Source of the DNA: a virus
Reading direction: 5' to 3' (one strand)
Virus record (IMG/VR): IMGVR_UViG_3300021961_000372
Location: 1 to 32,031 of that record
Length of the DNA stretch: 32,031 nt
The notes under the pieces are model-generated. The model searched no databases and was not told the origin of the DNA. It saw only the letters and a list, made by a program, of their open reading frames with translations. Position 1 is the stretch's first letter; the number at the start of each line of letters is the position of its first letter. Both the position numbers and the translations under genes were made by a program. Shown in pieces: positions 8,113 through 24,161 of this stretch.

Positions 8113-8856
8113 ATGGCAACTCAGAAAATCGAGACTATCCAAATCACCCCGCTCACTCAGAGCGAGGCCAAACTCACCATCATCGGCAACACGCCGCTTT
8201 ACTTCAATGCGATGTCGGCAAAGGCCCAGCGCACCCTTCTCGTTGGCGGCGGGAAGAAGACTGCGGCAGAGCGCCGCGAACTGAAGCACAACCCGGAGCA
8301 GGAGTTCCGCGACAGCATCTATAAGCTGCCAGCGGGTGACACGCTTCTCGCCTTTCCTGCGGCGGGCATCAAGCAAGCTATGGCTACTGCTGCGCTGGAA
8401 ACTGCCGGCATTAAGAAGACCGAGGTTCAGCGCCTGATCTTCCTGCCGCAAGAGAAGGTTCATGTGTGGGGCGAACCATTGCTCAAGATGGACATCGTTC
8501 GATCTGCCGACATGAATCGGACGCCGGATGTTCGCACTCGCGCGTTTTTGCCAGAGTGGTGTGCCGAAGTGACGATCCGCTTTATGACGCCAAACTTCTC
8601 GCTGCACGGGATTGTATCGCTGCTGGCAAATGCTGGTGCCATTGTTGGGATTGGCGATTTCCGGCAGGAGAAAGGGCGCGGCGGTTTTGGCACCTTTACC
8701 GTGTCGCCAGATGGCAGCGATGAACGGATCGCTGAAATCAAGCGGCAAGGCCGGATGGTTCAGATGGCCGCAATGCACAACCCACGGCCAGCAGATGAAG
8801 AAACTGCTGAACTGATGGCGTTTATGACTGAAGAACGCCTGCTCCGCGCAAGCTAA
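8113..8856 (+). CDS. Conserved phage protein with RAMP-like glycine-rich C-terminus (247 aa)
   Basis: I recognise this as a protein found in several phage and prophage early regions but know no proven function. Visible features are an N-terminal NTPLYFNAMS strand, a KTAAERRELKH helix, a central LLAFPAAGIKQAM segment, the RTPDVRTRAFLP motif (about 138-149) and a C-terminal GIGDFRQEKGRGGFGTF loop. The glycine-rich loop recalls those of RAMP/Cas6-type RNA-binding folds; this is only a resemblance. The ATG at 8113 is chosen because GGAGAA lies 6 bases upstream. It is the first rightward gene, directly followed by the UUCG hairpin and the pentamer array. Confidence 0.75.
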   Translation: MATQKIETIQITPLTQSEAKLTIIGNTPLYFNAMSAKAQRTLLVGGGKKTAAERRELKHNPEQEFRDSIYKLPAGDTLLAFPAAGIKQAMATAALETAGIKKTEVQRLIFLPQEKVHVWGEPLLKMDIVRSADMNRTPDVRTRAFLPEWCAEVTIRFMTPNFSLHGIVSLLANAGAIVGIGDFRQEKGRGGFGTFTVSPDGSDERIAEIKRQGRMVQMAAMHNPRPADEETAELMAFMTEERLLRAS

Positions 8857-8863
8857 TGAGTTT

Positions 8864-8885
8864 GCCCTCGCCTTCGGGCGGGGGC
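8864..8885 (+). terminator. UUCG-tetraloop hairpin after the first rightward gene
   Basis: GCCCTCGCC (8864-8872) pairs with GGCGGGGGC (8877-8885), including one G-U pair, around a TTCG loop closed by C-G. This is an unusually stable RNA hairpin. Only two T residues follow, so it may pause, protect a 3' end or attenuate rather than stop transcription fully. Its 3' arm merges into the pentamer array. Confidence 0.5.
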
Positions 8886-8890
8886 TTGGC

Positions 8891-9149
8891 GGTCGCGGCG
8901 AGGCTGGGCTGGGCGAGGCGCGGCTGGGTCAGGCCAGGCGGTCAAGGCTGGGTGTGACTGGGTTAGGACAGGTCAGGCAAGGCGGTCAAGGTCCGGCTGG
9001 GTACGTCGGGGCTAGGCTTGGCACGGCACGGCTGGGCAAGGCGGTCGGGGCGCGCTTGGGCTGGGTTAGGCACGGCTGGGCAAGGCAAGGCGGTCACGGC
9101 GCGGCTGGGCAAGGCAAGGCTCGGCGTGGCGGGGCTAGGCGGTCACAGG
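8891..9149 (+). repeat. Hierarchical NNGGC pentamer array with GGTCR punctuation
   Basis: The 309-bp gap 8857-9165 is mostly this array. Five blocks begin at 8891, 8940, 8984, 9043 and 9092 with GGTCA or GGTCG, then a 4-base NGG(C/T) step or close variant, then 8, 7, 10, 8 and 8 pentamers. 31 of 41 pentamers read NNGGC exactly; others are mostly TGGGT. A sixth GGTCA closes the array at 9141-9145. Distances between GGTC marks are 49, 44, 59, 49 and 49, all one short of a multiple of five. All plus frames stay open because few stops can form; I do not call them genes. Confidence 0.92.
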
Positions 9150-9165
9150 ACAAATGGAGAATCAC

Positions 9166-9684
9166 ATGAACTTCACGAAGAAAATGAAACAGCAGATCAT
9201 TGACGGCTATATGGCTGCTACTGGTAGAAATATGTATGTGCCTGGCGAGTTTGTTTCATGGCTGAGTGGTCAGCCAGAACATCCAGCCTACGCTGTATTC
9301 TTTTCGATCAGCGACGAGGAAGCCGCTCACAAGCACCGCGAACACATGGCTAGAGAATGGGCCAGTGGCTTGCGATTTGTTGTGAAGAGTATTGAGGTGC
9401 AACCCGCATCGAAAATGGCCTTCACAGTGCAAGCACCGCTTATGATTTCGCCAATCTCGCAGCGCAAGAGCGGCGGTGGTTATGTTTACTTCGATATAGA
9501 TGACGACAGCCATATGGCCAGTTTTCGCAAGGAAGCCGCTGATGCGCTCGCGGCATTTGTGCGGAGATACGAACTTGCCTTAGTCAATTCGGGCGCGAAT
9601 ATAGATAGCCTGCGGGACGCCATTGAAGCGCTGCAATCAGAGCATATGGAGGAATTGGAATATGACGCTCAAGCCAATGAATAA
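9166..9684 (+). CDS. Hypothetical phage protein (172 aa)
   Basis: I do not recognise this product. It starts MNFTKKMKQQIIDGYMAATG and looks globular, with mixed charged helices, a GGGYVYFDIDDDSH strand region in the middle and an acidic, helical C-terminus. No catalytic motif or membrane segment is visible. The ATG at 9166 has GGAGAA 5 bases upstream and follows the pentamer array directly, so the array forms the leader of this gene if transcription reads through. It overlaps the next gene by 23 bases. Confidence 0.75.
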   Translation: MNFTKKMKQQIIDGYMAATGRNMYVPGEFVSWLSGQPEHPAYAVFFSISDEEAAHKHREHMAREWASGLRFVVKSIEVQPASKMAFTVQAPLMISPISQRKSGGGYVYFDIDDDSHMASFRKEAADALAAFVRRYELALVNSGANIDSLRDAIEALQSEHMEELEYDAQANE

Positions 9685-11459: not shown

Positions 11460-11600
11460 ATGCAAAAGGAGGCAATGCTTCGATTGCGCCGGAAGTTAGA
11501 AGTGATGCTGATTGAGGCAAAACGCCAGACTGGATCCAGCAAGTATGACATTGAGGAGTGCCTAGCCCTCCTCGGAATAATTGAAAGGGGAAAAGAATGA
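11460..11600 (+). CDS. Small helical protein (46 aa)
   Basis: The product starts MQKEAMLRLRRKLEVMLIEAK and is probably two helices joined near TGSSKYD. It is not recognised. The ATG has GGAGG 7 bases upstream, and the stop overlaps the start of the DUF6378-like gene as ATGA. The strong ribosome site and coupling make it a better call than its length alone would allow. Confidence 0.6.
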   Translation: MQKEAMLRLRRKLEVMLIEAKRQTGSSKYDIEECLALLGIIERGKE

Positions 11601-11914
11601 ACCGCTCCGAAATTCTCGACACAGCAAAGCTGTATATCACAAAGGATCGAGCAGCTACTCACGGCAGTGATGCCGAAGACAGCTTCTCAACAATCGCGGC
11701 CTTCTGGGCGGCTTACCTCAACAGGCCGATTTATGCGGAAGATGTCTGCATAATGATGTGCCTGCTCAAAATAGCCCGCTTCAAGAACAACCCCGCCCAC
11801 ATCGACAACAGCGTCGATCTTTGCGGCTATTCAGCCTTGGCCGGCGAAATCGCATCCCTAGCGGACAAGGTTGCGGCTGAGGAGCTTACCAAAGAAGAAC
11901 CCCCGGCAACTTAA
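11597..11914 (+). CDS. DUF6378 / MazG-like protein (105 aa)
   Basis: The product matches the phage DUF6378 family: RAATHGSDAEDSFSTIAAFWAAYL (residues about 18-41), then AEDVCIMMCLLKIARFKNN and DNSVDLCGYSAL. This helical core is related to MazG-type nucleotide pyrophosphohydrolases. MazG proteins hydrolyse NTPs or ppGpp-like alarmones; the exact substrate of this family is not known to me. It closes the rightward gene string and is followed at once by a hairpin. Confidence 0.8.
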   Translation: MNRSEILDTAKLYITKDRAATHGSDAEDSFSTIAAFWAAYLNRPIYAEDVCIMMCLLKIARFKNNPAHIDNSVDLCGYSALAGEIASLADKVAAEELTKEEPPAT

Positions 11915-21545: not shown

Positions 21546-24161
21546 TCAATACTCCACTGTTGCGGATAGGGTTGTCACATATGGCGTGACGTTAGCGTTT
21601 GTGTTGGAGAATATGGCACGAAACTGCACATATCGCCCAACAATTTCTCCAGACGCATCCGACCAACTACCCCAAGTTGAGGCGTCTTCCGATGCTCTGC
21701 ATTGAACCTGAACCGCAAAGTCTGCGAAGTCAGCAGTTTCATCCGTCCAAGTATCCCAATTATCCGGCCATGTATCCCAGTTACCAGGCAAGTCATCCCA
21801 GTTAATAGAGCCGCCAGAGGCCAAGGCGTGTTTGCGGGTCTGTGCGATATTATAAGATGCGCGAACAGTGCGAGATGTCCCGACATCAAAATAACCAGCA
21901 CCACCGTGGTAAAAATCATACGTCCCGGTAGATCCGGCGCTCGTATAGCTAGTCATATACAAGGCACCGCCAGATGCGGTAAGATTTGTCTTTGTGCCTA
22001 AGAAGGTGGTGCTTTCCGTGTCTGTGTCGGAGACGCCAAGCTGCGGAAGCTCTGATGGGCTGACCACAATGCTTGCAGCGGTATAGCTTTCGTTGCCTGT
22101 TTTGTCGATTGCCGTCAGGAAGAATTTGCCAGCCAGAGCAGGATAGGTGACGCTAGTTGCTGGACGAGCAATCTTGTAGATCACGCGCTGAACGCTGGCA
22201 TCGCCAAACGAAGAAGAGGAGTTTGACGAATACCACAGCGAATAGTGCGACAGGTCCAAATCTGCAACCGCATCCCAGTGCATGAACAATGTGCCGCCAG
22301 ACAGCAAGTGGTCGAAGTTTGTCGGAGCCGCTGGAGGTGTGGTGTCAGCGGTCATATTGATGGTTGATGTGACTTCAGCGCCAGAGAAGCCAAACGCATT
22401 CACTGGTGTAACCTTCACTGTGTAATTGATTGCAGGCTCATCAATCTGCGGAACTTCAATGTCGTTAATCTCAAAGCGAGCAACATCTTGCGCCCCGCCA
22501 GGAAGACGCCCTTGGCCCAAGTTTTTATAGTTTGCGTCTGCTGTCTTTTTGTAGCGAATGCGAACAAAGTCGATCTGCTCAAATGAGGTTGAGGTAACAT
22601 AAATCACCATCGCATTGGTGACGTTTTGATTGACTGCTCTGTATTCCTGAGACAGCGACACGCCGATTGTCGGCACCTCATTGATGGCTGGGAGGTTTGT
22701 GTTGTTGGCAGCAAGCTCACTCTCCTCCGCATCCCAATCGAATGCCGCAGAGCTTGTCTCGCGCAGCGTCATGGAGATACGGATTGCACCGCTGTCACCT
22801 CTGGTCAGCGACCAAGAGCCTACCTCAAATTCCTTATTGGTCCAGCCGTACTCGGCAATCGTCAAGTCAACAATATCACCGACTTCAACGCCAAGCGCGG
22901 TCAGGTCGAAATCTGCCACAAACGTCATCTGCTCGCGGCTGCGGAAGAGCATCTGCTTGGCAACGCGCTGGGCGCGATATGGGTCAGTCAGGAACGTGAA
23001 ACTTACATCGAGCGGATTCTCAATGTTGTTGTCCTCAGCCAAGAATGTGCTGCTAGTGATCGCCGGAAAGTCGGCCTCGACATAATCAGCGGCGGCGTGG
23101 ACAAACTTACCAGTGATGGAATTGTAGTTGTCCCGGCGGGATGCCTTTGTCGGCAACGATATGCTGCTGCGTAGGTTGTCGAGCGTAAATGACTTAACGC
23201 TGGCGGAATAGACGCCAACCTTCAGCTTCCAATCGCCCCCACCGTAAAAAAGAGCGCCATTGCAAGACTTAACTAGGTCTTGCAGGGTTTGACCAACAGG
23301 AACGTCCGAGCGAACAACGCCATTGATCGTATAACGCTTTTGCGTACCACCGACCGCGAGGGGGATATTATCATCGCAATCGTTGGCCGCTGCCGCGAAA
23401 TATGTATCGTCAGTTGAGGTATCATCCAATCCATACGAAGACCGGATGTAGTCCCTGATGACCAGCGCAGCATTTGCTGAAGCAGGATAGACTTGAGCAG
23501 CGCCAGCGGTATTGGCGACCTTCTTGCCGTCCACAACTGCTGTTATGTTGGGGATTCCACCGCTGAAAATTTCTCCGTCATATTCGAAGCGGACGTATAA
23601 ATATGCAATGCCATTGCCGACGAAACTCGACCCAACGGAACCAGTTGTCCCGGAAGTCTCTGAAACAAGATCACTGTCAGCTGTGGTCTGTGTCCCGTTA
23701 TACTTCTTGATTCTGATCTTGCTGGCCCAAGGATCGCTCGTCACAAAGCCGCTACCATCGAGCGCGACGATCTGATCGTTGATATAAATATCCCCAATGC
23801 TCTCAACTGGCGAACCCGCCAGCGTAATTATCATATGTAGATATTTGTTCTGCGTTCCGCTTGCAGACATATAAGTTATGACGCCGCCCTTACGGACACG
23901 GCCATAGACATACTCATGAGGCTCTGCCGCGCCCCGGAAGTTCAGAAGTGAGCCTTGGTTCTGGGCGGCAGACAACTGCTGTTCAGCTAGGGCGTTCAGC
24001 GCGTATGACGTGATCGCTGTGGTTGCCGCGTAGTAGATCACGTTTGCCGCAATATATGCTGCCGTTGAACCACCCAACGCGGAAGCTATGGCAGGCACCA
24101 CAATTTCTGGATGCCTTGGCGCCACATCCCAATCGGCGTGGCGCATCACATTGAATGGCAT
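21546..24161 (-). CDS. gpJ-like tail tip / host-specificity protein (about 871 aa)
   Basis: This large protein occupies the place of lambda gpJ: after the NlpC/P60-like protein, before the fibres. An Ala-rich hydrophobic N-terminal segment is followed by RGAAEPHEYVYGRVRKGGV and the typical tip core (ITLAGSPVESIGDIYIN, NGVVRSDVPVGQTLQDLVKSCNG). FN3-like parts start near residue 580, and a Trp-rich repeat (NWDDLPGNWDTWPDNWDTW) lies near 800. It forms the tail tip and contacts the host. The ATG at 24161 is used; a TTG at 24179 would add six residues. Confidence 0.85.
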   Translation of the reverse strand: MPFNVMRHADWDVAPRHPEIVVPAIASALGGSTAAYIAANVIYYAATTAITSYALNALAEQQLSAAQNQGSLLNFRGAAEPHEYVYGRVRKGGVITYMSASGTQNKYLHMIITLAGSPVESIGDIYINDQIVALDGSGFVTSDPWASKIRIKKYNGTQTTADSDLVSETSGTTGSVGSSFVGNGIAYLYVRFEYDGEIFSGGIPNITAVVDGKKVANTAGAAQVYPASANAALVIRDYIRSSYGLDDTSTDDTYFAAAANDCDDNIPLAVGGTQKRYTINGVVRSDVPVGQTLQDLVKSCNGALFYGGGDWKLKVGVYSASVKSFTLDNLRSSISLPTKASRRDNYNSITGKFVHAAADYVEADFPAITSSTFLAEDNNIENPLDVSFTFLTDPYRAQRVAKQMLFRSREQMTFVADFDLTALGVEVGDIVDLTIAEYGWTNKEFEVGSWSLTRGDSGAIRISMTLRETSSAAFDWDAEESELAANNTNLPAINEVPTIGVSLSQEYRAVNQNVTNAMVIYVTSTSFEQIDFVRIRYKKTADANYKNLGQGRLPGGAQDVARFEINDIEVPQIDEPAINYTVKVTPVNAFGFSGAEVTSTINMTADTTPPAAPTNFDHLLSGGTLFMHWDAVADLDLSHYSLWYSSNSSSSFGDASVQRVIYKIARPATSVTYPALAGKFFLTAIDKTGNESYTAASIVVSPSELPQLGVSDTDTESTTFLGTKTNLTASGGALYMTSYTSAGSTGTYDFYHGGAGYFDVGTSRTVRASYNIAQTRKHALASGGSINWDDLPGNWDTWPDNWDTWTDETADFADFAVQVQCRASEDASTWGSWSDASGEIVGRYVQFRAIFSNTNANVTPYVTTLSATVEY

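Follow-up and report, generated by a model that had tools for sequence, protein, structure and literature searches.

VIPR (Viral Interference Programmable Repeat) was reported in a preprint of April 2026 (PMC13142463) as a system composed of a phage RAMP protein, guide RNAs in which GGY alternates with two further letters (NN), and an accessory gene. The protein, which is related to those of CRISPR, reads two letters out of each five in the RNA, and finds and shuts down genes of rival phages (PMC13142463). The NN letters recognise double-stranded DNA, one base being skipped between NN pairs (PMC13142463). The mechanism considered below is taken from this source. The system appeared in print only months ago, and the experiments on it rest on few clades.

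The window analysed here (the whole stretch of DNA, 32,031 nucleotides) covers positions 1 to 32,031 of the IMG/VR virus record IMGVR_UViG_3300021961_000372. The phage is of the Roseobacter type; its capsid protein shares 80% identity with its counterpart in Roseobacter phage CRP-811, a phage of similar gene order and size with no detectable vipr gene. We consider that positions 8113 to 9684 form a complete VIPR locus (vipr, guide array and accessory gene) whose array carries five guides, and we attribute a probability of about 0.94 to this reading. The features of the locus are the following.

8113 to 8856, plus strand: vipr, predicted RAMP (Cas7/Csm3-like) guide-RNA-binding protein of 247 aa, ATG at 8113; assigned from phrog_4652, profile and fold
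8864 to 8885, plus strand: leader hairpin with a 9-bp stem and a UUCG loop, between the vipr stop and the array
8886 to 9144, plus strand: predicted VIPR guide (vrRNA) array, five guides of NNGGY pentamers and six GGTC delimiters; kept in relatives
8891 to 8894, plus strand: GGTC delimiter 1, the first of six
8895 to 8939, plus strand: guide 1, GC-GA-TG-TG-GA-GC-TG-CA-CA, as read from the array
8944 to 8983, plus strand: guide 2, AA-TG-GT-TG-TA-CA-CA-AA; the most degraded scaffold of the five, exact NNGGC in 3 of 8
8988 to 9042, plus strand: guide 3, AA-CC-TG-AC-GG-TA-TT-AC-AC-TG-AA, as read from the array
9047 to 9091, plus strand: guide 4, GG-GC-TG-TG-TA-AC-TG-AA-AA, as read from the array
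9096 to 9140, plus strand: guide 5, AC-GC-TG-AA-AA-TC-GT-GG-TA, as read from the array
8940 to 8943, 8984 to 8987, 9043 to 9046, 9092 to 9095 and 9141 to 9144, plus strand: GGTC delimiters 2 to 6; all six are intact
9166 to 9684, plus strand: candidate vap (VIPR-accessory protein), 172 aa, mostly helical; conserved beside vipr

The array is intergenic: the vipr stop (8856) is followed by the hairpin, the array and then the candidate vap gene. The locus lies at the start of a rightward early gene block, and PHROGs and Pfam scans identify the neighbouring genes as phage replication and early genes. The mechanical open reading frame of vipr starts earlier, at a TTG (8068).

This is the only array of its type in the record. 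It was first spotted from the raw sequence alone, in a first-pass annotation that gave the GGTC positions, block lengths of 49, 44, 59, 49 and 49 and a count of 31 exact NNGGC among 41 pentamers; every coordinate was verified. In that parse GG is present in 38/41 pentamers and G at position 3 in 41/41. The spacings from one GGTC to the next are all of the form 5n+4 (4 mod 5), which bears out the proposal that each block slips by one base. The most economical parse, however, consists of NNGGC units plus a 4-nt GGTC, so that the slip is the delimiter itself and not a shift within a pentamer. Parsed in this way, 8886 to 9144 holds 46 NNGGC-type pentamers in five blocks of 9, 8, 11, 9 and 9, divided by 4-bp GGTC marks. 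The order is, as had been claimed, well beyond chance: the array scores 78 compared with a maximum of 12 among 1000 dinucleotide shuffles, and contains 26 GGC-to-GGC steps of 5 bp compared with a maximum of 7. An Rfam scan of the window gave no match. Two other repeats occur in the window, a 23-bp tandem repeat (2033 to 2190; 6.9 copies, 95% identical) that extends to the end of a minor tail protein gene and a 21-bp tandem repeat (21741 to 21804; three copies) within a tail fibre gene.

The array had also been described as non-coding, which we retain, but the argument that all plus frames stay open carries little weight since stops in NNGGC repeats arise solely via TAGGC. Without TAGGC, an (NNGGC)n stretch has no stop in any frame. 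In deposited phages VIPR arrays have been called as, overlap or flank hypothetical protein genes (for example, L002 2313 to 2699, Donkeykong gp48; L345 2363 to 2686, UmaThurman gp40; and L346 3001 to 3938).

Pfam has no family for the window Vipr protein, and no PADLOC defence model matches it. A profile built from a 44-member alignment clearly matches one PDB sequence, 36pp 'SUSP1 Vipr protein' (E=2.3e-6), over only about 50 residues. The structure model (mean pLDDT 86, pTM 0.81) has the Csm3/Cas7 fold: its best matches using Foldseek and VIA-align are backbone RAMPs of CRISPR types III and VII (Csm3/Cas7), with Z up to 10.7, and the matches listed are exclusively CRISPR RAMPs. A G-rich loop, GIGDFRQEKGRG, is conserved throughout the 44-member alignment and, judged from the sequence, this stretch probably occupies the position of the RAMP G-rich loop. 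The window protein thus agrees with the RAMP type of Vipr, which has an RRM core and a G-loop.

The gene at 9166 to 9684 has a homologue in 94 of the 95 vipr loci with room for one, and these homologues are on the same strand in 110/110 cases. Of the 36 members of this family, 23 match phrog_15946; the candidate Vap itself has no Pfam family, PDB match or recognised fold. The UUCG hairpin reported ahead of the array is present, and a hairpin of different sequence occupies the equivalent site in nearly every relative examined. Across an alignment of 12 sequences, four of its eight pairs are altered on both sides with pairing retained.

At least 281 stretches of IMG/VR viral contigs contain a relative of vipr, and 80 of these loci were retrieved. 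Most of these carry a same-strand array just downstream of vipr and several have a second array beyond the next gene. We also scanned viral contigs using the DNA pattern alone, blind to the protein. This returned 54 loci, 50 with a genuine array; vipr accompanies 42 of the 50, always on the same strand (42/42), and seven of the eight arrays lacking it are in contigs or loci truncated upstream. None of the 119 pattern loci from bacterial genomes carries vipr (0/119), and the 80 of these that were listed and scored are chance matches, not arrays. In deposited Mycobacterium and Gordonia phages array and vipr adjoin at 27 to 30% protein identity. This co-occurrence, both in viral contigs and in deposited phages, indicates that protein and array form one system.

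The relatives differ in array size. Two arrays of 2.5 kb with 43 delimiters (L087 2034 to 4501 and L126 6533 to 9000) far exceed that of the window, and L104 has one of 1.4 kb with 22 delimiters. A 1.8-kb array (L131 1317 to 3130) near a remote vipr homologue (26% identity) has AGTC- or CGTC-like delimiters and 43 slips in the parse. In an alphaproteobacterial genome with a vipr homologue (L340 1232 to 1493, genome G314) the pentamer runs are joined by GGACTTCG(A/T)GGC, so that delimiters vary between clades. Separately, pieces at least 99% identical to window genes at the protein level occur in other metagenome contigs (L003, L255, L257 and L258), which implies that the phage has been sampled more than once.

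The first-pass annotation proposed a check, that related phages keep the 5n+4 spacing while the pentamers vary, and this proved to be so. Among 416 mark-to-mark spacings, 366 are 4 mod 5; a further 35 are 3 mod 5, as expected from two slips with one unrecognised mark between them. In 430 distinct blocks, position 3 is G in 97%, position 4 is G in 86% and position 5 is C or T in 94%, while NN is near uniform over the 16 dinucleotides. Non-GGC cores (GGT, GTC, GGA) are common in the clade. The delimiter is GGTC in 528 cases and GGTT in 69, and the pentamer preceding it ends in C in 99.8%. Actinophages and the cyanophage Cy-LDV1 use AGGC/AGGT, with spacings again mostly 4 mod 5. In orthologous blocks, changes per pentamer are 0.008 at position 3 and 0.065 to 0.11 in NN, and are highest (0.138) at position 5. 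Given how little NN changes between such blocks, guides seem, from these comparisons, to be replaced as whole blocks more than to drift.

To examine the code, sister arrays were read as guides through their NN letters and compared with related phage loci in which arrays were masked. In a target of approximately 2 Mb (both strands counted), nine guides matched at E<0.01 with a skip of one base and none with a skip of zero or two. In a target of 3.8 Mb (n=339), the corresponding numbers were eight with a skip of one, one with zero and two with two, and shuffled guides gave approximately 0.1%. Skip rules other than 1 nt and shuffled guides thus match at about the chance rate, while the NN letters of sister arrays of the window's clade match DNA with a 1-nt skip. 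For example, the L007 guide, TAx GGx ACx TTx GCx GTx GCx GGx, matches the YGTFAVAG motif of rival vipr genes at every letter, and an L077 guide likewise matches a capsid motif exactly. Guides of L077 and L083 match two sites of a major capsid gene, those of L097, L100, L127 and L024 match two sites of a Sak4-like ATPase gene, and one of L073 matches a primase-helicase gene. Except in L101, the skipped base falls at the codon wobble position in all the best sister-guide matches; the L101 guide matches a DUF6378-like gene of L071 with three mismatches and the skip off the wobble position. The window also has a DUF6378 gene (11597 to 11914), similar in appearance to this predicted target in L071. 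Several of the strong pairs are related to one another, which leaves about five or six independent guide-target cases. The target match is not continued by the NN letters on the far side of a delimiter, and a delimiter-bounded block is therefore one guide.

The five guides of the window have no convincing target in the sets searched, which cover few rivals. When viral contigs were searched for exact skip-1 matches to guides 1, 3, 4 and 5, two single matches resulted, each approximately what chance provides for 18 letters: the sole match of guide 1 is of this chance type, as is that of guide 4, at a gene end of an unrelated phage, and guides 3 and 5 have no exact target there. Guide 3 with up to two mismatches gave nothing in 395 genomes of one alphaproteobacterial family, and guide 5 with up to three gave nothing in 30 viral records. 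With mismatches allowed, the guides match at chance level in loci of related phages, among them the Roseobacter phages CRP-811, CRP-406 and CRP-831, apart from the guide 4 match described above. Most sister guides are likewise without a target in the small set searched, and missing targets for the window guides therefore say little.

These results bear on the most serious alternative, that the array of the window phage is decayed or inactive, its guides matching nothing alive and much of the GGC scaffold of block 2 being lost. The lack of targets for all five guides and the 3/8 exact NNGGC of block 2 are what this would predict. We nevertheless regard decay as unlikely: vipr and vap are open and conserved, all six delimiters are intact and no pentamer has lost its position-3 G, while GGT, GTC and GGA cores are common in the clade and absence of a target is the usual state of sister guides in so small a set.

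The scaffold statistics count against a G-rich DNA or RNA structure, either two-tetrad G-quadruplexes or a stable R-loop priming replication or recombination, as the first-pass annotation had suggested. GG does recur every five bases on the plus strand and the array sits where the rightward gene block starts. However, conservation drops from 97% at the first G to 86% at the second, with GTC, GTT and GAC cores tolerated, the fifth letter is specifically a pyrimidine (94%), the delimiters follow 5n+4, and relatives' arrays of up to 2.5 kb fit badly. The linkage to a RAMP gene and the decodable guides add to this, and we judge such a structure very improbable. Roles as a recombination hot spot or packaging mark, put forward at the same time, are unsupported for an array linked to a RAMP protein gene and decodable as guides. 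Of the roles suggested, only that of an RNA is retained: the array is probably an RNA.

We give equally little credence to pentamer expansion by slippage, or to a mosaic recombination linker at gene borders, with no guide function. Tandem repeats at gene borders and block turnover between relatives would suit either, but slippage predicts identical neighbours and what is seen is a fixed GGY with NN near uniform over 16 dinucleotides; in orthologous blocks position 3 changes at 0.008 per pentamer compared with 0.07 to 0.14 elsewhere, and the excess of targets appears under a skip of one. A TRAP-like ring binding 5-nt repeats, a RecT 5-nt filament, chi sites, an antisense rut site and a switch-region-like R-loop were rejected because they explain neither the vipr linkage nor the skip-1 targets.

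For the preferred reading, a VIPR locus with five guides, we infer transcription, processing, DNA binding and repression in the window phage, as well as targets of its own guides. The plus strand of the array would be transcribed, and Vipr subunits would coat the RNA, one per pentamer, gripping GGY and leaving NN exposed. Each GGTC-bounded block of 8 to 11 pentamers would be one guide, pairing with 16 to 22 DNA letters spaced NNxNNx with the skipped letter usually the codon wobble base. The 4-nt GGTC would disrupt the 5-nt subunit register so that one guide ends and the next starts, and the bound complex would repress the target gene in a rival phage.

With GGTC delimiters, no tails and a leader hairpin, the array may represent a VIPR variant. 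A fuller version of this idea is tentative, and we would sooner bet against it than for it: the 4-nt register-breaking delimiter (GGTC/GGTT, or AGGC/AGGT in actinophages and the cyanophage) would take over the boundary role of the 3' tail, allowing a single long transcript to load several complexes end to end, the leader hairpin would set the start, and the guides would be directed against core genes (those for capsid, primase and Sak4-like ATPase) and rival vipr.

The locus belongs to a large marine clade (with a vipr relative in at least 281 stretches of viral contigs) close to cultured Roseobacter phages, and RNA-guided repression of phage by phage could therefore be sought in a system that is both natural and culturable. 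The 5n+4 rule, which holds in distant phages, provides a simple signal of guide boundaries and an easy pattern for genome-wide searches.

Among known systems, Class 1 CRISPR-Cas (with its Csm3/Cas7 backbone) shares the RAMP fold and G-rich loop, the coating of the guide by multiple subunits, and delimiters around variable units. It differs in its 6-nt period and contiguous guide, where the window has a 5-nt period, a non-contiguous guide and no long repeats; no cas or adaptation genes were seen beside the window array, nor CRISPR repeats with contiguous spacers. Mycobacterium phage Donkeykong, Gordonia phages UmaThurman and ODay and cyanophage Cy-LDV1 carry NNGGC pentamers with spacings mostly 4 mod 5, in records not annotated as VIPR, and differ in having AGGC/AGGT in place of GGTC/GGTT. 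A vipr homologue adjoins the array in the first three; none was found by tblastn in Cy-LDV1. VIPR type II of Escherichia phage SUSP1 (PMC13142463) shares with the window the RAMP protein Vipr, GGY/NN guides, an accessory gene, carriage by a phage and skip-1 reading, the Vipr similarity being remote. As a positive control, the SUSP1 record showed NNGGT runs of 11 to 15 units. The SUSP1 guides, of 11 to 15 units, are separate RNAs with a fixed structured tail, whereas those of the window, of 8 to 11 units, lie end to end with GGTC between them and, unlike SUSP1, a hairpin ahead of the array. An invariant structured 3' tail of the SUSP1 type is absent after each window guide, only 4 nt separating one from the next, and sequence beyond the last GGTC mark is not conserved across the clade. 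The 'staggered arrays with overlapping vrRNAs' mentioned for VIPR (PMC13142463, fig. S18) possibly have the same architecture, since a register slip would stagger the pentamers. The window array is ordinary for its clade, and of a VIPR kind that is already known and very new.
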